Below are positions 5,689-32,732 of a stretch of 64,000 nt of DNA, piece by piece; position 1 is the first letter of the stretch, and each line of letters opens with the position of its first letter. Source of the DNA: Lachnospiraceae bacterium NE2001 (GTDB lineage Bacteria > Bacillota > Clostridia > Lachnospirales > Lachnospiraceae); assembly GCA_900110635.1 (NCBI GenBank), contig FOEK01000003.1, forward strand, positions 124,001 to 188,000, in the 5' to 3' direction. The notes beneath the pieces were generated by a model. That model had not been told where the DNA came from. It made no database searches and saw nothing but the letters and a program-made list of their open reading frames with translations. The position numbers and the translations under genes were made by a program.

Positions 5689-5740
5689 ATGTGCAATGGG
5701 GACAGCCCCCATTGCACATAGGTCTGTCCCTTATGCACAT
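5689..5740 (+). repeat. REP-like palindromic element, copy A
   Basis: A 52-base element made of a 13-bp perfect hairpin (5689-5701 with 5707-5719, ATGTGCAATGGGG/CCCCATTGCACAT, loop ACAGC) followed by AGGTCTGTCCCTTATGCACA. The reverse complement of 20731-20782 matches nearly base for base, so this is one element present twice in opposite orientation. GGGGACAGTCCCC-type sequences of this sort are known near REP-associated (Y1/IS200-like) transposases, though none is in this window. It sits 14 bases after the VWA gene and may also end its transcript. Confidence 0.75.
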
Positions 5741-5856
5741 TTTGAAACATGATTTATAGGACGTGGCGAATGGCTCTATGCTATTTTCCACGTCTTATGT
5801 TATATTAGATAAAAGTAACTGTTGAACAGTTTCAAAAAGATTGACAGGGGAGTGAA

Positions 5857-23628: not shown

Positions 23629-25083
23629 ATGAGTTATGATAAGTATGTAAGTCCACTTTCAGAAAGATATGCCAGCAAGGATATGCAATACATCTTCTCA
23701 CCTGACAAGAAGTTCAAGACCTGGAGAAAGCTCTGGATCGCTCTTGCTGAGACAGAGAAGGAATTGAATCTTCTTGGTGAGGATGGTCAGCCACGTATCA
23801 CTCAGGAGATGATCGATGAGCTGAAGGCAAATGCTGAAGATATAGATTACGAGTACGCTAAGGCTGAGGAGGCAAAGGTGCGTCACGATGTTATGGCTCA
23901 CGTTCATACCTATGGTGCAAAGTGCCCTAAGGCTGCAGGCATCATCCACCTTGGCGCAACAAGCTGCTACGTTGGCGATAACACTGATGTAATTATTATG
24001 ACAGAGGGTCTTAAGCTTGTACGTAAGAAGCTTCTCAATGTACTTAATGAGCTGTCAAAGTTCGCTATGGAGTACAAGGATCTTCCTACTATTGCATTTA
24101 CACATTTCCAGCCAGCACAGCCAACAACTGTTGGTAAGCGTGCAACTCTCTGGATGAACGAGTTCTTTATGGATCTTCAGGATGTTGAGTACATGATCTC
24201 ACAGCAGAAGCTCCTTGGTTCAAAGGGTACAACAGGTACACAGGCTTCATTCCTTGAGCTCTTCAACGGTGACCACGACAAGGTTAAGAAGTTAGATAAA
24301 ATGATAGCTGAGAAGATGGGCTTCGACGATGTATACCCAGTATCAGGCCAGACATATTCACGTAAGGTTGATTCACGTGTCCTGAACGTACTTTCTGGTA
24401 TTGCTCAGTCGGCTCATAAGTTTTCAAATGATATCCGCCTCCTTCAGCATTTAAAGCAGATCGAGGAGCCATTTGAGAAGAACCAGATCGGTTCATCAGC
24501 TATGGCATATAAGAGAAATCCTATGAGAAGTGAGCGTATCGCTTCACTTGCTAACTACGTTATCTGCGACGCACTGAACCCAGCAATTGTTGCTTCAACT
24601 CAGTGGTTCGAGAGAACACTTGATGATTCTGCTAACAAGAGAATCTCTGTTCCAGAGGCATTCCTTGCGGTAGATGGAATCCTTGATCTCTGCCTTAACG
24701 TAGTAGATGGACTTGTTGTTTACGACAAGGTTATTGAGAAGAAGTTCATGGAAGAGATTCCATTTATGGCTACAGAGAATATCATGATGGACGCTACTAA
24801 GGCTGGTGGCGACAGACAGGAGCTTCATGAGAAGATCCGTCAGTACTCTATGCAGGCAGGCGCTAATGTAAAGAAAGAGGGTAAGGAGAACAACCTCCTC
24901 GACCTCATCGCTGCAGATCCTGCATTTGGCAAGACTCTGGATGAGCTGAAGGAGCTGATGAAGCCTTCACTCTATGTTGGCCGTGCACCACAGCAGACAG
25001 AAGAGTACATAAGTGAAGTGATTCAGCCAGTACTTGATGCAAACAAAGCAGAGCTCGGTTTAACTGCAGAGATAAACGTGTGA
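23629..25083 (+). CDS. purB: adenylosuccinate lyase
   Basis: A 484-residue fumarase/aspartase-superfamily lyase that cleaves SAICAR to AICAR and adenylosuccinate to AMP in purine synthesis. The superfamily signature GSSAMAYKRNPMRSERI lies at about 288-304, with HLGATSCYVGDNTD at about 103 and the flexible loop lysine region between. The size fits the longer lyase type common in Clostridia rather than the 430-residue Bacillus type. AGAGGAAT precedes the ATG. The partner purA is at 30.0 kb, so the AMP branch genes are near but not together. A structured element follows immediately. Confidence 0.95.
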   Translation: MSYDKYVSPLSERYASKDMQYIFSPDKKFKTWRKLWIALAETEKELNLLGEDGQPRITQEMIDELKANAEDIDYEYAKAEEAKVRHDVMAHVHTYGAKCPKAAGIIHLGATSCYVGDNTDVIIMTEGLKLVRKKLLNVLNELSKFAMEYKDLPTIAFTHFQPAQPTTVGKRATLWMNEFFMDLQDVEYMISQQKLLGSKGTTGTQASFLELFNGDHDKVKKLDKMIAEKMGFDDVYPVSGQTYSRKVDSRVLNVLSGIAQSAHKFSNDIRLLQHLKQIEEPFEKNQIGSSAMAYKRNPMRSERIASLANYVICDALNPAIVASTQWFERTLDDSANKRISVPEAFLAVDGILDLCLNVVDGLVVYDKVIEKKFMEEIPFMATENIMMDATKAGGDRQELHEKIRQYSMQAGANVKKEGKENNLLDLIAADPAFGKTLDELKELMKPSLYVGRAPQQTEEYISEVIQPVLDANKAELGLTAEINV

Positions 25084-25091
25084 TTAATGAT

Positions 25092-25227
25092 GTTCATGCA
25101 GATTTATATGATAAGCACCGTGAAAGCTGGCTTTCTAAGGTGCTTCATCAGATAAATCTATATGAGGCGAAGCCTCATCATTGCTGAACAGGAGTTGCGA
25201 AGCAACGGGTTCAGCAATTGCTTGAAC
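25092..25227 (+). ncRNA. multi-hairpin repeat element, copy 1 (structured RNA or palindromic mobile element)
   Basis: A 136-base element between purB and rmlD. The outer stem GTTCATGC/GCTTGAAC (25092-25099, 25220-25227) encloses three arms: arm 1 AGATTTAT/ATAAATCT (25100-25107, 25152-25159) continuing to CACC/GGTG over an inner GAAAGC-GCTTTC-like hairpin; arm 2 ATGAGGC-GAA-GCCTCAT (25162-25178); arm 3 ATTGCTGAAC/GTTCAGCAAT (25180-25189, 25209-25218) with inner GTTGC-GAA-GCAAC. Copy 2 at 32579-32732 keeps the fold with different stem bases. The type is uncertain. Confidence 0.6.
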
Positions 25228-25246
25228 AATAAAGGAGAATAAAACT

Positions 25247-26161
25247 ATGAAGTTTTTTGTGACAGGTGTTTGTGGTCAGCTTGGCCACGATGTTATGAAT
25301 GATCTGGCAGCTCGTGGATACGAGGGTGTGGGAAGTGATATCCAGCCCGAGTACAGCGGTGCAGCTGATGGCACAGCAGTTACGACTATGCCTTATGTTC
25401 AGCTTGATATTACAGACAGGGATGCGGTTATTGCGAAAATCAAGGAAGTAAATCCTGATGTTATCATTCACTGTGCAGCCTGGACTGCGGTTGATGCGGC
25501 AGAGGATGAGGAGAACCAGCCTAAGGTTCGTGCTATAAATGTGGACGGCACTCAGAACATTGCTGACGTAGCAAAGGAACTGGGCTGCAAGATGATCTAC
25601 ATTTCTACTGACTATGTATTTAATGGTCAGGGCGAGGAGCCTTGGCAGCCAGATTGCAAGGACTACGCTCCACTCTGCGTATATGGACAGACTAAGCTGG
25701 ACGGTGAGCTTGCAGTTGCTAGTACACTGGAGAAATATTTCATAGTACGAATTGCCTGGGTATTCGGAGTTAACGGCAAGAACTTCATCAAGACTATGCT
25801 GAACGTTGGAAAGACTCATGACAGAGTTACGGTTGTTTCTGATCAGATCGGAACACCTACATATACATTTGACCTTGCTCGTCTTCTTGTGGATATGGCT
25901 GAGACTGAGAAGTATGGCTATTATCACGCAACTAACGAGGGCGGATTCATCTCCTGGTATGATTTCACCAAGGAGATATATAAGCAGGCAGGCTACACCA
26001 CAGAGGTTGCTCCTGTTACAACTGCTGAGTACGGTATTTCAAAAGCAGCGAGGCCATTTAACTCAAGACTTGATAAGTCAAAGCTTGTTGAAATGGGATT
26101 CCAGCCATTACCTACATGGCAGGATGCACTTAGTCGTTACCTGAAGGAAATCGAGTATTAA
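25247..26161 (+). CDS. rfbD: dTDP-4-dehydrorhamnose reductase family protein
   Basis: A 304-residue short-chain reductase/extended family enzyme that reduces dTDP-4-keto-L-rhamnose to dTDP-L-rhamnose, a sugar donor for cell-surface polysaccharides. The nucleotide-binding start FVTGVCGQLGHDV, the DITD motif, YISTDYVFNGQ, the YGQTKLDGE catalytic Tyr-Lys pair and RIAWVFGVNG are all typical. The other rml genes are not next to it, so the assignment to the rhamnose branch is by family rather than context; the glycosyltransferases at 1.5-3.3 kb are possible users of the product. AAAGGAG lies 9 bases before the ATG. Confidence 0.87.
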   Translation: MKFFVTGVCGQLGHDVMNDLAARGYEGVGSDIQPEYSGAADGTAVTTMPYVQLDITDRDAVIAKIKEVNPDVIIHCAAWTAVDAAEDEENQPKVRAINVDGTQNIADVAKELGCKMIYISTDYVFNGQGEEPWQPDCKDYAPLCVYGQTKLDGELAVASTLEKYFIVRIAWVFGVNGKNFIKTMLNVGKTHDRVTVVSDQIGTPTYTFDLARLLVDMAETEKYGYYHATNEGGFISWYDFTKEIYKQAGYTTEVAPVTTAEYGISKAARPFNSRLDKSKLVEMGFQPLPTWQDALSRYLKEIEY

Positions 26162-26331
26162 ATTAGTGCTTGGGTGTTTTCTTTTTATGTAATTACTGTT
26201 ATAATCTTAAGGAATGTGCGTAGCTCATGGATTAGAAGGATTTTGGGGCTATGGAGCTATGCATCGGATAATATGAAGGTTTGAAGGTTATGGTTCAGAC
26301 CGAAAGTCTAGAGAAAAGGGGAGATATTACT

Positions 26332-28140
26332 ATGGACGGAAACAATATGAATCCTATGGGCCCAGATCCTAATATGTTCGGGGGACAGCAGCCACAGCAG
26401 TTTGGTCAGCCACAGGGTGGCCAGAATCCATACGGCCAGCCACAGCAAGGCCAGAATCCATACGGCCAGCCACAGCAGTATGGCCAGCCACAGGCACCGC
26501 AGGGTGGACAATATGGGCAGCCACAGCAAGGCCAGAATCCATATGGGCAGCCACAGCAGTATGGTCAGCCGCAGGCACCGCAAGGTGGACAGTACGGTCA
26601 GCCACAGGCACCGCAAGGTGGACAGTATGGTCAGCCACAGGCACCGCAGGGTGGACAGAATCCATATGGTCAGCAGGGCGGACAGTTCGGCCAGCCACAG
26701 GCACCGCAGGGTGGACAAAATCCATATGGTCAGCAGGGCGGACAGTATGGCGGTCAGCCATCAGCACAGCCGGGAATGGTTTATAATGATACATCTGCTT
26801 CAAATGCATACACTCAGCCACAGCCAGGCTTTGGCGGTCCTGGATCAGGTGGACCTAAGCCTCCAAAGAGTGGTGGAGGTAATAAGACAGGCCTCATTAT
26901 AGGAATCGCTGCTGGAGCAGTTGTACTTATTGGTATTATAGTTGCTGCAATCCTTATTCTTGGTGGAAAGAACATCAAGGGCGCTGAACAGGCTTCTTTG
27001 GGATTCGTTCAAGCATATAGCGAGTTAGATTTTGAAAAGATGCTGGAATATGTTCCAGAAGAGATAGCAAGCTCAGATGATTATGAGTTTAACGAAGAAG
27101 ATTCTGAGGAAATGGCAGAGCTTCTTGAATCATTTGGTTTTGAGCTTAAGGATCCTGAGATTGTTGAGTCTGAGAGACTTGATCCAAAGGCTACAGCTAA
27201 GGAGATGAACGACAAGTTCGATACTGAGTTTAAGTTTAAGAATGCTGCAAGAGTTGTTATTGATGCAACAATGAGCATTACCTTCTTTGACGAAACAAGC
27301 GAGGATGACGTTGAGTTCGAGTTCACCTGTGGAAAGATAGGTGGAAAATGGTATATCATCGATCTTGAGGATAACTCTGATGAGGTATTCGAAGAGGAGG
27401 AAGAGGATCTCGAGGGCAATATTGACACTGACGACGATGACGATGATGATGACGATTTAGAGACTGCTACAATCGATGAGGATGAGGAAGGCGATCCAAG
27501 CGCAAATGGCGAAGATGATTCCGATAGTGAAGACGGCGAATATGAGGATATCTCAAGCATAGCTGAGATCATTGATATGTCTACAGCACCAAGTCACGTG
27601 GTTGATGCTCCAGCAGGAGTTTCAGATGATTACAAGGATATGTGCTTCTCCTTCGAAGGAACTGTATATACAATGCCATTTTCACTTAAAGAGCTCAGCT
27701 CTGACTGGGTATTAAATGAGAGCTACTTCTACAAGGAAGATGAAGAGCTTGAACCTGGTGATGAATCTTCTTCAAATCAGCATGAAAATGAGAACTACGA
27801 TGAGTGGTTTGATCTGTATCTTGCAACCTGTAATCCTACAGAAGAGACTATTGCTTATGAGGATTCATACGTAAAAGAGTTTGATGCTGACATTGATTAC
27901 TGTGATACAGATAACTATCCAGAACTGATCCTTTCAAAGGGTATCACCTGGGGTTCATCACTTCAGGATATCTATGATGCTTATGGCGATGCCAACAGCG
28001 TATATATGGGATATGACAACTCTTATGTATATCTCTATTACTATATTGATGAATATGGCTTCGATGAGCTGACACTTGAGGTCAGCTTCGAGAAAGGTCT
28101 TACCAGAGTAGAGTACAGCAACTGGAACTGGGATAAATAA
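26332..28140 (+). CDS. Gln/Pro/Gly-rich acidic membrane protein
   Basis: A 602-residue protein. Residues about 20-150 are repeats of PQQGQNPYGQ and QAPQGGQYGQ (DNA repeats at 26395-26765), then one membrane helix (about 188-210, GLIIGIAAGAVVLIGII), then an acidic outer part with a run of nine Asp (DDDDDDDDD) and Glu-rich stretches, and a C-terminal domain of beta-strand character (about 425-602). Such Q/P/G/Y-rich cytoplasmic tails may be disordered and multivalent. AAGGGGAG favours ATG 26332 over the TTG at 26281. The function is not recognised. Confidence 0.75.
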   Translation: MDGNNMNPMGPDPNMFGGQQPQQFGQPQGGQNPYGQPQQGQNPYGQPQQYGQPQAPQGGQYGQPQQGQNPYGQPQQYGQPQAPQGGQYGQPQAPQGGQYGQPQAPQGGQNPYGQQGGQFGQPQAPQGGQNPYGQQGGQYGGQPSAQPGMVYNDTSASNAYTQPQPGFGGPGSGGPKPPKSGGGNKTGLIIGIAAGAVVLIGIIVAAILILGGKNIKGAEQASLGFVQAYSELDFEKMLEYVPEEIASSDDYEFNEEDSEEMAELLESFGFELKDPEIVESERLDPKATAKEMNDKFDTEFKFKNAARVVIDATMSITFFDETSEDDVEFEFTCGKIGGKWYIIDLEDNSDEVFEEEEEDLEGNIDTDDDDDDDDDLETATIDEDEEGDPSANGEDDSDSEDGEYEDISSIAEIIDMSTAPSHVVDAPAGVSDDYKDMCFSFEGTVYTMPFSLKELSSDWVLNESYFYKEDEELEPGDESSSNQHENENYDEWFDLYLATCNPTEETIAYEDSYVKEFDADIDYCDTDNYPELILSKGITWGSSLQDIYDAYGDANSVYMGYDNSYVYLYYYIDEYGFDELTLEVSFEKGLTRVEYSNWNWDK

Positions 28141-28154
28141 GAAGTATGTAAGTT

Positions 28155-28186
28155 TCACGGGGGATGCCTTGGGGTATCCCCCGTGA
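28155..28186 (+). terminator. GC-rich hairpin after the acidic membrane protein gene
   Basis: TCACGGGGGAT (28155-28165) pairs with ATCCCCCGTGA (28176-28186) around a 10-base loop. No T tract follows. The 11-mer TCACGGGGGAT also occurs at 41179-41189, within another palindromic element. The next gene starts 22 bases further on, so read-through control is possible. Confidence 0.6.
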
Positions 28187-28207
28187 TGGTTATTTGGAGA
28201 AAATGTT

Positions 28208-29920
28208 ATGGCTGATATATTGGAGTATTTGGATTGGCGCGGGGATATTACCTTTGACGTGGATCCATTTAATGATGTAGACAATTTAATACTTGCTCAG
28301 ATGTCGTACACGGATCTTGAGGGCGTGATGACCCAGGATGAGGAACTATCAATTGAGGACGTGGCAGGGATTTATTTTAATATTCATTCTGAAGAGGAGA
28401 TAACGGCCAGAGATACATTTTATAAGCTTGCTCCACTGGTGCTTAAGAAGGCCTCGGAATCAAAACGTTTTAAGGGGACCACCATCGGACGTTATATCAA
28501 TATGATCAGCTCCGATCGTGAGGAACAGTACTCGGCTGTGACATATCGCCTTCCGGATGGCGTGTGCTATGTGGCTTTTCGCGGCACCGACAACACCATC
28601 GTTGGATGGAAGGAGGATTTCAATCTGACTTTTATGAATGAGACTGCGGGCCAGCGGCGGGCGGTGGAATATGTAAATTATTATTTTGCAGATACTGAAG
28701 AGCGGCTGATACTGGGTGGTCATTCTAAGGGAGGCAACTTCGCGGTCTATGCGGGGGCCTTCTGCGATGAGTATGTTCAGGAGCGGATCGATGCCGTATA
28801 TTCAAACGACGGACCTGGCTTCAGGGACGAGATTCTGGAGAAGGATGGCTACAAGCGTATCCTTCCGAGGGTTGTAAGCATTTTACCTGAAGACTCAATT
28901 GTGGGAGTGCTTCTGTCAAATGATTACGAGAATCATATTGTGAAGAGCTCTGCCAAGGGCATAAACCAGCACGATCCAATGACCTGGCAGGTATATGGAA
29001 ATGCATTCGTGGAGGAGGAGCATCGAAGCGAGGGCAGTCGTCTTATTGATAAGACCATGATGAAATGGCTCGCCACCATGAATGATGATGACCGGGCTGC
29101 ATTTGTTGATTCTCTGTTTTCATCCATTGAATCCACTGGTGTAACTACTCTTCGGGATGTGAGTGACGGTGGTCTTAAGACTATTGCGGATATAATGAAG
29201 TCTCTCAAGAATATGGCGCCTGAAAGACAGCAGGAATTCTCCGCCAGTGTGAAGCGCCTTCTGAAAATAGGAAGTGAGCTTGCAGTGAAGGATGTGAAGA
29301 GCAAGGCGCGACTTCCAAAGATAGAGCGAACGGTGGACAGAAAGTCTGAGCTCCGAAAGACTATGAAGGATATTCGTAATGGACTGACTGAGGAACAGAT
29401 TAAGGAATATTCACACAGTATATGCGAGACAATCCGTGGCCTCCGCTCTTATACAGAAGCAGATATGGTTCTGGCTTATATGAGCACAGGCAGTGAGGTG
29501 CGTTTGCAGGAACTGATAAATGCAGCGCGGGAGGAAGGAAAGCGAGTATACATCCCTAAGGTAATGAACAAAAAGGAAATGCGTTTCTATCTCTATGATG
29601 GGAAGTTTACAAAGGGTAGCTTCGGAATTCGTGAGCCAAAGCATACCAGCGATATGAAGATGTATGATCCGGAACTGGAGCATCTTCTGAGTGAGAATCG
29701 CCGCACGCTTGTGGTAATGCCTGCGCTGGCCTTTGATATCGAAAAGAACCGGCTGGGATATGGCGGCGGGTACTATGACCGCTTCTTTGAAAAGGTGGAG
29801 GATTATCCGGTAACATTTATCGCTGCAGGCTTCGACTGCCAGATAGTCGATAGTGTTCCGACTGATGCTAATGACAGAAGGCCGGAGATGATAATCACTG
29901 AAAATCGAATAATCACCTAG
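28208..29920 (+). CDS. fusion of Mbeg1-like (DUF2974) hydrolase and 5-formyltetrahydrofolate cyclo-ligase
   Basis: A 570-residue two-part protein. Residues 1-350 are of the DUF2974/Mbeg1-like alpha/beta-hydrolase type, starting ADILEYLDWRGDITF and DVDNLILAQMSY, with the nucleophile elbow GGHSKGGNFAVYAGAF. Residues about 375-570 are a 5-formyl-THF cyclo-ligase (ATP-dependent formation of 5,10-methenyl-THF) with RKTMKDIRNGL, PALAFDIEKNRLGYGGGYYDRFF and IAAGFDCQIVDSVP. Each domain normally occurs alone. The reading frame is open throughout with no break in codon use. A role linking folate repair to a lipase-like activity is not obvious. GGAG precedes the ATG by 9 bases. Confidence 0.87.
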   Translation: MADILEYLDWRGDITFDVDPFNDVDNLILAQMSYTDLEGVMTQDEELSIEDVAGIYFNIHSEEEITARDTFYKLAPLVLKKASESKRFKGTTIGRYINMISSDREEQYSAVTYRLPDGVCYVAFRGTDNTIVGWKEDFNLTFMNETAGQRRAVEYVNYYFADTEERLILGGHSKGGNFAVYAGAFCDEYVQERIDAVYSNDGPGFRDEILEKDGYKRILPRVVSILPEDSIVGVLLSNDYENHIVKSSAKGINQHDPMTWQVYGNAFVEEEHRSEGSRLIDKTMMKWLATMNDDDRAAFVDSLFSSIESTGVTTLRDVSDGGLKTIADIMKSLKNMAPERQQEFSASVKRLLKIGSELAVKDVKSKARLPKIERTVDRKSELRKTMKDIRNGLTEEQIKEYSHSICETIRGLRSYTEADMVLAYMSTGSEVRLQELINAAREEGKRVYIPKVMNKKEMRFYLYDGKFTKGSFGIREPKHTSDMKMYDPELEHLLSENRRTLVVMPALAFDIEKNRLGYGGGYYDRFFEKVEDYPVTFIAAGFDCQIVDSVPTDANDRRPEMIITENRIIT

Positions 29921-30037
29921 TAATATGAACACATTGTAAATTCGAGTATAAAACGCTTTTATTCTTATAAGCAATGTGTTAGAATAGCAAATTGCGGGGT
30001 TTTGCCCCCATTAATAAATAAAGTAGGAGGCGTATTA

Positions 30038-31315
30038 ATGGTTACTGCAGTAGTAGGTGCAAACTGGGGAGATGAAGGAAAAGGAAAGATTACTGACATG
30101 CTGGCTGAGAAGGCTGACATCGTCATCAGATTTCAGGGAGGAGCAAATGCTGGTCATACAATCATAAATGATTATGGCCGTTTCGCACTTCATACACTTC
30201 CTTCAGGTGTGTTCTATGATCATACAACAAGCATCATCGGAAATGGTGTAGCACTTGATATTCCAAAGCTTTTTAAAGAGATTAAATCTATCGAGGAGGG
30301 CGGTGTTCCAACACCAAAGATCCTCGTGTCAGATAGAGCACAGATGGTAATGCCATATCACGTACTTCTTGATTCATACGAAGAGGAGAGACTTGCTGGT
30401 GCATCCTTTGGATCAACAAAGTCGGGTATTGCTCCATTTTACTCAGATAAATATGCAAAGATCGGATTCCAGGTTTCAGAGCTTTTCGAGGATGAGACAA
30501 CACTTAAGGAGAAGATTGAGCGAGTAATCGCGCAGAAGAATGTTCTCCTCGAGCATCTCTATCACAAGCCACTCCTTACTGTTGACGAAGTATACGCTAC
30601 ACTTATGGAATATAAAGAAATCGTTGCTCCATATGTATGCGATGTTTCAGCATTTCTCTACAATGCAATGAAGGAAGGCAAGAACGTTCTGCTTGAGGGA
30701 CAGCTTGGTTCAATGAAGGACCCAGATCACGGAATATATCCTATGGTAACCTCTTCATCAACACTTGCTGGTTACGGCGCAATCGGTGCAGGTATCCCTC
30801 CATATGAGATAAAGAGAGTTGTAACAGTCTGCAAGGCATACTCAAGTGCCGTAGGGGCAGGCGAGTTCGTAAGTGAGATCTTCGGCGAGGAGGCAGATCT
30901 TCTTAGAACTCACGGTGGTGATAAGGGTGAGTTCGGTGCTACAACAGGTCGTCCACGTCGTATGGGCTGGTTCGACTGTGTTGCTTCAAAGTACGGCTGC
31001 CGTCTCCAGGGTACAACAGATGTTGCATTTACAGTTCTTGATGCACTTGGCTACCTTGATGAGATTCCTGTATGCGTTGGCTATGAGATCGACGGTGAAG
31101 TTACAACAGACTTCCCTGTAACAACAAAGCTTAAGAAGGCTAAGCCAGTTAACAAGGTTCTTCCAGGTTGGAAGTGCGATATCCGCGGCATCACAAAGTA
31201 TGAGGATCTTCCTGAGAACTGCCGCAACTACATCGAGTTTATCGAGAAAGAGATTGGCTTCCCAATCACTATGGTTTCTAACGGCCCAGGTCGTCACGAG
31301 ATCATCTACCGTTAA
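30038..31315 (+). CDS. purA: adenylosuccinate synthetase
   Basis: A 425-residue GTP-dependent ligase joining IMP and aspartate to adenylosuccinate. The start VVGANWGDEGKGKITD is the GTP/IMP loop, with Asn in place of the usual Gln before WGDEGKGK. Further signatures are QGGANAGHTI, EGQLGSMKDPDHGIYPMVTSS and the TTGRPRRMGWFD block. The segment normally reading GIGPAY is GIAPFY here. ATG 30038 is chosen from TAGGAGG eight bases before it; the upstream frame to 30002 is not translated. A terminator follows the stop. Confidence 0.95.
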   Translation: MVTAVVGANWGDEGKGKITDMLAEKADIVIRFQGGANAGHTIINDYGRFALHTLPSGVFYDHTTSIIGNGVALDIPKLFKEIKSIEEGGVPTPKILVSDRAQMVMPYHVLLDSYEEERLAGASFGSTKSGIAPFYSDKYAKIGFQVSELFEDETTLKEKIERVIAQKNVLLEHLYHKPLLTVDEVYATLMEYKEIVAPYVCDVSAFLYNAMKEGKNVLLEGQLGSMKDPDHGIYPMVTSSSTLAGYGAIGAGIPPYEIKRVVTVCKAYSSAVGAGEFVSEIFGEEADLLRTHGGDKGEFGATTGRPRRMGWFDCVASKYGCRLQGTTDVAFTVLDALGYLDEIPVCVGYEIDGEVTTDFPVTTKLKKAKPVNKVLPGWKCDIRGITKYEDLPENCRNYIEFIEKEIGFPITMVSNGPGRHEIIYR

Positions 31316-31339
31316 TCAGATTAAAATGTAATAATCAGC

Positions 31340-31376
31340 TGGCATCCCTTTCGGTGAAAAAGGGGTGCCAACTTTT
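31340..31376 (+). terminator. intrinsic terminator of purA
   Basis: TGGCATCCCTTT (31340-31351) pairs with AAAGGGGTGCCA (31359-31370), allowing a G-T pair, and ACTTTTTATTTT follows. Confidence 0.88.
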
Positions 31377-31507
31377 TATTTTAGGTGTTATAATGCACAG
31401 GTAGTTTAATGAGCTATAGATATTTCTGTAAGGAAAAGGAAGGCGTGCAATATGAAATGTGACTGATAGTTGGCACATTTAATTAATCATATAAGAAGGA
31501 GAAGAGT

Positions 31508-32575
31508 ATGCATCAGTTCAAATTACCATATCATTTAATAGTAGACGACGGAATCTTCGGGAGAATACCTGCTGTTATGGAGGATGTTCTTCCGGGTATC
31601 GACCAGAAGAAGACGATTATAGTGACTGAAGAAAATCTGAAGGGAATCTTCGGAGGTCTCATAGAGGGAATCGAGAAGAGCTTTCCGAACAGCGAGCTCT
31701 ATCTGATTCAGTCAGCAAGCTACGACAATGCTGTAGCTCTTGCTAAATATATCACAATGAATGATATCCAGACGGTTATCGGCTTTGGCGGCGGCACCGT
31801 TCTTGATCTCGCAAAGTTTGCTGCATTTGTCAGTAAGGCAAAGCTGATCTCACTTCCAACAACTATTAGTAACGACAGCCTTGCTTCGCCAGTTGCAGTT
31901 CTTGGTACCGAGGGTAAGGCTCGTAAGACCTTTAAATGTACCATTCCACACGCGATTCTTGTAGATGCGTCTGTAATAATGAGTGCGCCTGAGAGACAGT
32001 TGCTGGCTGGAATCGGTGACACCGTCAGCAAATATACTGCCCTGAATGATTGGAAGATTGCGCACATCGCTGGCAAGGACTATGTTGACGACTTTGCATA
32101 TATGATATCCAAGATGGCATTTAACTCCATCGCTTATAACGATATGAAGGAACTGAAGAGTGTGGACTTCATCAAGCGTCTTACACAGGCTCTTGTAATG
32201 GGCGGACTTGCCATGGAGATTGCGGGAACATCTCGTCCAAGCAGTGGATCTGAGCATCTGTTCTGCCACGCTCTTGAAGAGAACTTTGCGGATCAGGTAA
32301 ATGTACCTCACGGTATTGCGGTTGCTATGGGAAGCTATGGTGCCTGCAAGTTCCAGGAACGAAACATTGCGAAGATTACCCGTATAATCAGGGAGTATGA
32401 CATCCCTGTTGTTCCATCCAGCTGGAATATCACTGAAGAAATCTTTGTTGGTGCTTGGCAGAGTGCGGCTGCAACAAGAGCAGACCGCTACACAATCCTG
32501 AACGAAACCGACCTCTCTACCGAGCGCCTTTCAAAGCTCTACTACGAGATGGAAGATGTGTTTGCAAACATGTGA
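31508..32575 (+). CDS. glycerol-1-phosphate dehydrogenase-like (AraM/EgsA family)
   Basis: A 355-residue metal-dependent dehydrogenase of the glycerol/G1P dehydrogenase family, which interconverts dihydroxyacetone phosphate and glycerol-1-phosphate with NAD(P)H. Signatures: GFGGGTVLDLAKF for the cofactor, SLPTTISNDSLASPVAVL for phosphate recognition, then metal ligands Asp in AGIGDTVSKY, His in GSEHLFCHAL and His in VPHGIAVAMG. The bacterial members (AraM in Bacillus) make heptaprenylglyceryl phosphate precursors. The gene stands alone with GAAGGAG before the ATG. The repeat element follows after 3 bases. Confidence 0.85.
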   Translation: MHQFKLPYHLIVDDGIFGRIPAVMEDVLPGIDQKKTIIVTEENLKGIFGGLIEGIEKSFPNSELYLIQSASYDNAVALAKYITMNDIQTVIGFGGGTVLDLAKFAAFVSKAKLISLPTTISNDSLASPVAVLGTEGKARKTFKCTIPHAILVDASVIMSAPERQLLAGIGDTVSKYTALNDWKIAHIAGKDYVDDFAYMISKMAFNSIAYNDMKELKSVDFIKRLTQALVMGGLAMEIAGTSRPSSGSEHLFCHALEENFADQVNVPHGIAVAMGSYGACKFQERNIAKITRIIREYDIPVVPSSWNITEEIFVGAWQSAAATRADRYTILNETDLSTERLSKLYYEMEDVFANM

Positions 32576-32578
32576 CCA

Positions 32579-32732
32579 ATGAGTTCATGCAGATAAAAAC
32601 GATAACAGCCACCGTGAAAGCTCGCTTTCAAAGGTGGCTGTTATTGTTTTTATCTATATGAGGCGAAGCCTCATCATTGCTGAACAGGAGTTTGACGAAG
32701 TCAAACGGGTTCAGCAATTGGCATGAACTCAT
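32579..32732 (+). ncRNA. multi-hairpin repeat element, copy 2 (structured RNA or palindromic mobile element)
   Basis: A 154-base copy of the element at 25092. The outer stem is 12 bp (ATGAGTTCATGC 32579-32590 with GCATGAACTCAT 32721-32732). Arm 1 is a long stem AGATAAAAAC...GCCACC / GGTGGC...GTTTTTATCT (32591-32613, 32633-32655). Arm 2 is identical to copy 1 (ATGAGGC-GAA-GCCTCAT, 32658-32674). Arm 3 keeps ATTGCTGAAC/GTTCAGCAAT (32676-32685, 32709-32718), but its inner stem is GTTTGAC-GAA-GTCAAAC. It lies between two convergent genes. Confidence 0.6.

Follow-up and report, generated by a model that had tools for sequence, protein, structure and literature searches.

The window analysed here, a stretch of 64,000 nucleotides of contig FOEK01000003.1 from Lachnospiraceae bacterium NE2001, contains two copies of a multi-hairpin element (plus strand, 25080–25228 and 32572–32732). 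These copies are members of a large family of small repeats of rumen and gut bacteria. Most likely they represent an older, divergent sister lineage of the Clostridiales-1 RNA (Rfam RF01699, with Weinberg et al. 2010, PMC2864571, as the founding paper) and not a new class. The explanation considered probable is that the family consists of dispersed, non-coding Lachnospiraceae repeats which have the DNA mobility of miniature inverted-repeat transposable elements (MITEs), are folded in mRNA and have stems that change in pairs. In this report, copies resembling those of the window are referred to as the window lineage, and the family model built from 18 full copies of it is termed R1. Genomes and loci carry G and L numbers, G000 being the window's own genome.

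Both window copies fold as an outer stem that encloses three arms. This plan is fixed in the family and comprises the outer stem, a long arm A, a short arm B and arm C. Arm B (ATGAGGC-GNA-GCCTCAT) and the tip of arm A, which is of the G(CTNG)C type, are almost constant in the window lineage. The stem of arm A is nearly wholly different between copies, with the pairing kept. In an alignment of 31 copies, which was fitted to the structure and is therefore biased towards it, 42 of 47 base pairs are changed on both sides, 96.0% of the cells are paired (75.5% in shuffles) and the covariation score amounts to 0.545 (0.152 in shuffles and at most 0.098 in slid controls). The preliminary description had taken the paired differences between the two window copies as a sign of selection on the fold, and these 31 sequences support the view that the fold is under selection or is otherwise maintained.

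Loops of the cGNAg type are in general stable in DNA. The loop classes cGNAg, gCNNGc, cGNNAg or cGNABg are found in 80 of 137 perfect hairpins of 89 window-like copies, compared with 8 of 268 in the flanks. The titles of published papers attribute unusual stability in DNA to cGNNAg, cGNABg, cCNNGg, gCNNGc and d(GCGAAGC).

Among the seven closest pairs of orthologues, which are at least 85% identical across the element, 14 changes are one-sided, five are two-sided and keep the pair, and one is two-sided and breaks it. At wider distance two-sided changes are more common. L002 and L104 differ by seven two-sided versus two one-sided changes, and arm C is wholly replaced. Between L081 and L086, three adjacent changed bases lengthen a perfect palindrome, which is the footprint expected from template switching. 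Template switching is reported to create and maintain RNA hairpins, compensatory changes included (PMC8794818). The strict claim that one arm is corrected immediately after a change in the other was dropped because the close pairs mostly show one-sided changes.

A probable relation to RF01699 is suggested by the folds and by model matches. RF01699 copies occur in the same genus and have the same order of parts as the window copies, with an outer stem enclosing arms A, B and C. Arm A carries a G(CTTG)C tip with extra bases on the 3' side, and arm C has a GGAG/CG inner loop and a cGNAg hairpin. In all 34 R1 copies and all 55 RF01699 copies with readable tips (of 89 and 79 copies, respectively), the 3' side of the tip has more unpaired bases than the 5' side, and one of 89 flank controls has a tip of this kind. 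The RF01699 model scores 49.6 bits on the sister copy L101, above the cut-off of 48 (one of 20 loci), and 42.4 bits, below the cut-off, on L102, the sole match in its set of 20 loci. Conversely, R1 matches 4 of 60 RF01699 loci below 1e-4 (L256, L353, L273 and L255; E-values from 2e-8 to 1e-5), each time over the RF01699 site. Within the genus, 46 of 61 genomes contain RF01699 above threshold, compared with none of 14 control genomes. The two lineages differ in arm B, which is long and interrupted in RF01699 and a short simple hairpin in the window lineage, and in the left end, which is GTGATTAATGAGTTCATGC in the window lineage and TGACATAAGTGTCA in RF01699. Furthermore, the score of at least 48 bits of the Rfam model is not reached by the window copies. 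From these sequence features, a common descent is likely but not proven.

In this genus RF01699 behaves as mobile DNA, as follows from identical copies, target duplications and a precise empty site. Five RF01699 copies in G008, each 168 nt long, are byte-identical, and a sixth deviates from them at one base. Their flanks differ, with only 8–9 bases of left flank available for two of them near a contig edge. Exact instances of the left end TGACATAAGTGTCAAAAGTC number 26 in G008 and 21 in G050. Neither of these genomes matches the backward control pattern even when three mismatches are allowed, and G000 has two matches. The full unit of ~203 bp has the ends TGACATAAG and CCCACATCA, which form an imperfect inverted repeat as judged by eye. 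Exact direct repeats of 5–6 bp flank 8 of 11 units found by a two-end pattern, that is, units with intact ends, versus a mean of 0.9 and a maximum of 5 with shuffled right flanks (2000 trials). For L333 (G049), the relative G012 has a precise empty site with one TTAATA, and in G034 the site is unfilled with a small deletion. The sequence adjoining the left end is preferentially ATAWWA.

In 18 of 56 RF01699 copies the region of the left end is overlapped or adjoined by an exact TATAAT, compared with 4.3% in shuffles. The claim of insertion into promoters is nevertheless weakened, since the element itself contributes one base of TATAAT, the site is merely AT-rich and many other copies are located at stop codons. 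The RF01699 left end is also an operator-like inverted repeat, frequently near TATAAT. Lone short left ends or mini-palindromes of the unit are located directly before genes at L293, L295, L303, L306, L310 and L314. Four copies in G050 (L263, L264, C2:85355 and C12:78593) measure ~311 bp by the distance between end patterns and have extra hairpins on the right side. A single pair of ends, ~2 kb apart, encloses two open reading frames (ORFs), one without a Pfam match and one with a DUF4097 domain.

Occupancy of the window-lineage sites varies among relatives. Of 30 purB loci, two are filled (the own locus and that of G033), three contain shortened copies (G016, G045 and G059) and 25 are without the element. 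The purB of G005 is 94% identical, yet its site is free of the element. At the dehydrogenase gene preceding copy 2, 30 loci were fetched, of which 14 were unreadable. In the remaining 16, the own site is filled, that of G059 is filled with very different arms and 14 lack the element. At L017 of G050, between genes which are presumably pgk and tpiA (these names, as well as ychF and rplF, are assumed from translated ends), the element is positioned between GATAA and GATAG. In 8 unfilled relatives examined among 15 fetched, the two flank matches overlap by 5–11 bases in six and are separated by a gap of 3–4 bases in two. As a sign of target duplication in the window lineage, this case is suggestive only. 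Copies flanked by target duplications, which the preliminary description had named among the observations that would refute it, were found for the RF01699 relatives, and the window lineage gave this one suggestive locus.

Some sites are occupied repeatedly. Of 89 copies examined, seven are at the 3' end of ychF and five at purB, three of the latter shortened. The purB copies of G000 and G033 (L001 and L014) differ by one base and are 99% identical, with flanks that are 90% and 85% alike. A near-identical purB copy in two species hints at either recent exchange or strong constraint.

One strand of the element seems to be constrained, as RNA or as single-stranded DNA. This follows from the mismatch bias of the plus strand and from its better fold. 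When G-U pairs are forbidden, single stem mismatches of the plus strand comprise 38 G.T, 12 A.C and 74 others (p = 3e-4 for G.T versus A.C). In 76 of 89 window-like and 70 of 71 RF01699 copies, the fold of the plus strand is better than that of the complement. G-U pairs are scarce (3.3% in the plus and 1.9% in the minus strand).

Orientation to genes, defined as plain ORFs of at least 70 codons, was counted after merging of orthologues. At 58 window-like sites the left and right genes are ++ in 30, -- in 15, +- in 7 and -+ in 5 cases, and one site has no right gene (p = 0.036 for ++ versus --). The 78 RF01699 sites include 32 ++ and 7 -- (p = 7e-5), as well as 5 that are too short, 2 within an ORF and 10 without a gene on at least one side. 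The left end is at most 10 nt away from the stop codon of a co-directional gene at 18 of 38 window-like and 25 of 42 RF01699 sites. With this co-directional placement many copies would be part of mRNA, and the plus-strand fold is probably read there. Five copies are located directly behind a T-box leader and before the next gene. The Rfam T-box model is above threshold near L031 and L067, and below it near L015, L035 and L101.

The following course of events would account for these observations. The wider family would move as DNA like a miniature inverted-repeat element; for the window lineage, we infer this step entirely. Insertion would take place beside AT-rich ATAWWA sites and generate a target duplication of 5–6 bp, the duplication and the empty site being those of RF01699. 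Since the units seen carry no gene, the transposase would have to be supplied from elsewhere. An element that is often found at a gene's stop codon and tends to share the direction of that gene would be copied into mRNA, in which the plus strand may form the outer stem and the three arms. Its most likely role there would be that of similar repeats elsewhere, namely to label or protect transcript ends and to be cut by RNase III. Cleavage of such repeats by RNase III is reported in a review of MITEs (PMC10969869). After insertion the stems would change while pairing is kept, with single changes at the beginning and two-sided changes at greater distance. Selection on the fold, template switching in which an arm is copied from the other arm at replication, or both may cause the paired changes. 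A more far-reaching version is tentative and rather doubtful: only the plan and not the sequence of a mobile element would be inherited, with stems rewritten pairwise by arm-to-arm copying at replication and the architecture alone selected. Such selection would act on the hairpin in DNA, whose loops belong to classes named as stable there, as well as on the structure within mRNA of host operons.

Several observations weigh against the mobile, RF01699-related origin proposed here. The RF01699 model has no match at either window copy, even with E-values up to 10, and in three sets of sister loci it reaches the threshold in 1 of 20, 0 of 20 and 0 of 20. L035, which is 98% like L101, is not matched by RF01699, and 56 of the 60 RF01699 loci have no R1 match below 1e-4. 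As the palindromes are strong, some cross-matches between R1 and RF01699 could arise without common descent. No target repeat could be made out at the two window copies, and the element-free purB site of G005 matches the filled site imprecisely. A transposase-bearing parent unit was not found by end patterns in G008, G050, G057 and G000. The direction bias of the window lineage is weak after merging of orthologues. The copies share ancestry, so that counts over copies are not independent. Finally, the excess of one-sided over two-sided changes in close pairs means that the arms are not corrected at once.

An unlikely alternative is a stationary structured RNA with a regulatory or 3'-end function, inherited at fixed sites and immobile, whose likeness to RF01699 results from convergence. 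The plus-strand polarity fits such an RNA, several species share filled sites at the 3' end of ychF and at purB, and the single-base difference between the purB copies of G000 and G033 looks like constraint in view of their more divergent flanks. However, the element is missing from most of the purB and readable dehydrogenase sites (25 of 30 and 14 of 16), subfamilies are numerous in some single genomes, and copies are found next to very different genes.

The preliminary description had left open whether the element is an RNA or a palindromic mobile DNA. The evidence points to both, as the RF01699 relatives behave as mobile DNA and the plus strand has the polarity expected of a structure acting in single-stranded form. 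The preliminary interpretation is partly supported. With one suggestive case in the window lineage itself, it is refined and not settled.

Movement as single-stranded DNA by a Y1 (HUH) transposase, similar to repetitive extragenic palindromes (REP/REPIN) and their RAYT proteins, is very unlikely. In that case the bulged hairpins would serve as recognition sites. The enrichment of the four loop classes in the element hairpins and the polarity conferred by one-sided bulges are in agreement with this model, and Y1 genes of ~250 amino acids are present in the genus. On the other hand, none of 40 Y1 loci of the genus (part of those listed) has an R1 match. Y1 elements are not known to leave target duplications, whereas the RF01699 units have duplications of 5–6 bp. 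Least probable of all are independent perfect palindromes that arose by template switching at replication and are neither mobile nor functional. Palindromes reach into flanks that are unique to one copy, for example at L092 and L094, and partial tandem copies of arms are present at L013 and L034, both as expected from such a process. Yet the tip, the arm order and the sequence of arm B are conserved across species, and RF01699 has identical copies and target duplications. Template switching alone is therefore contradicted as a full explanation, but it may account for part of the stem change within the mobile, mRNA-folded family favored here.

In the window, copy 1 is located between purB (TIGR00928, above cut-off) and rmlD. 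Its left end GTGATTAATG includes the purB stop codon. In G005, which lacks the element, this stop codon is different. According to the fold, the left strand of the outer stem (TGTTCA-T-GC, 25091–25099) is followed by arm A (25100–25159), a long variable stem with a GAAAG-CTGG-CTTTC tip and a one-sided bulge, arm B (ATGAGGC-GAA-GCCTCAT, 25162–25178), arm C (ATTGCTGAAC-AGGA-(GTTGC-GAA-GCAAC)-GG-GTTCAGCAAT, 25180–25218) and the right strand of the outer stem (25220–25228). The gene before copy 2 encodes an iron-type dehydrogenase (Pfam PF13685, above cut-off), and the gene after it is convergent and has an AAA domain. The left end of copy 2, GTGACCAATG, which was set by resemblance to other copies, includes the stop codon TGA (32573–32575). 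The fold consists of the outer stem with ATGAGTTCATGC (32579–32590) and GCATGAACTCAT (32721–32732, where the element ends), arm A with a stem of 23 bp and a tip with GAAAG-CTCG-CTTTC (32591–32655), an arm B identical to that of copy 1 (32658–32674) and arm C with GTTTGAC-GAA-GTCAAAC (32676–32718). All these parts are on the plus strand. The R1 model spans 25084–25229 and 32575–32730, and the end of the copy 2 outer stem at 32732 agrees with the preliminary description.

The folds are better than those of shuffled sequences, with z-scores of −7.5 (copy 1) and −13.6 (copy 2) for RNA parameters (0 of 200 shuffles equally good) and of −8.6 and −14.1 for DNA parameters. The two copies with one shared scaffold are present where the preliminary description had placed them, it named the stems and the paired changes in them correctly, and both copies do follow the stop codon of a metabolic gene. 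Only its count of three GAA triloops per pair of copies has to be revised, as there are two per copy (arms B and C) and four per pair. Further R1 matches in the window are the reverse strands of the two copies (E = 3e-7 and 0.017) and one at noise level (5730–5841, E = 0.21); there are no others. An Rfam scan of the window yielded nothing above the curated thresholds. At loose thresholds the matches were far below threshold and mostly of microRNA or snoRNA type.

BLAST of the own genome gave nine matches at six loci, and full window-lineage copies within this genome are only 78–84% alike. Matches were obtained in 18 of 99 genomes searched (own genome included), one of which, G074, looks like chance. 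The covariance search suggested in the preliminary description was carried out with R1 and extended the family across the genus and the Lachnospiraceae: matches are present in 43 of 61 genomes of the genus (E 0.001) and, in a sample of 397 Lachnospiraceae genomes, in 70 (E 1e-5). Subfamilies can be numerous within single genomes, with 15 matches in G056 alone. Folding of 28 family loci revealed the plan, as judged by eye, in 24. Two others are unclear, and the remaining two had been cut wrongly because a contig start is nearby. The exact arm B pattern was found in eight stretches of a named genome collection, seven from Lachnospiraceae and one from a Eubacterium sp. from water buffalo. No match to a window copy was found in phage records or plasmids, and viral contigs contain no exact match to either of the two core patterns. 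The RF01699 unit has two matches in phage records (70–73% identity over 66–76% of the unit) and a full-length match of 75% identity in the Butyrivibrio fibrisolvens plasmid pNP243 (L425). This relative on the megaplasmid is an unannotated stretch present at three places in the record.

More complex arrangements were also observed. In the own genome (L013:734–1092, contig C20), a copy behind ychF is extended by three more arm C units in tandem, which are ~69 bp long and have a similar spacer. At L026 / L070 (G044:C15), nested hairpins, many of them with CGAAG loops, form a long mosaic behind a copy.

RF01699 is listed in Rfam as a probable non-coding RNA, and its behavior as a mobile DNA repeat in this genus bears on the reading of covariation. 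Covarying base pairs are commonly accepted as proving that an RNA is functional, and a very strongly covarying family with mobile relatives would be a good test of the limits of that inference. Moreover, the family is a natural system for observing compensatory changes at insertions of different age. Searches of open papers listed none whose title or abstract opening describes RF01699 as mobile DNA, and novelty is unproven.

Among known repeats, REP/REPIN sequences with RAYT (PMC3733652, PMC3116915) are described as folded extragenic palindromes with polarity and resemble the present family in this respect. They differ from it by having one or two hairpins instead of three arms. In addition, relatives of the present family have target duplications, and none of the 40 loci mentioned above connects it with a Y1 gene. 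There is also a similarity to MITEs such as Correia, BOX, RUP and ERIC, as described in the review PMC10969869. It comprises small size, absence of genes, palindromic structure, AT-rich intergenic sites and, probably, structured transcripts. Inverted ends and target duplications are shared with MITEs by the RF01699 units. Likewise, near-identical copies at unrelated loci are seen for RF01699 in G008, whereas the window-lineage copies of the own genome have the lower identities given above. In contrast to MITEs, no parent insertion sequence was found for this family, and its stem sequences are almost wholly divergent between copies while the plan is constant.

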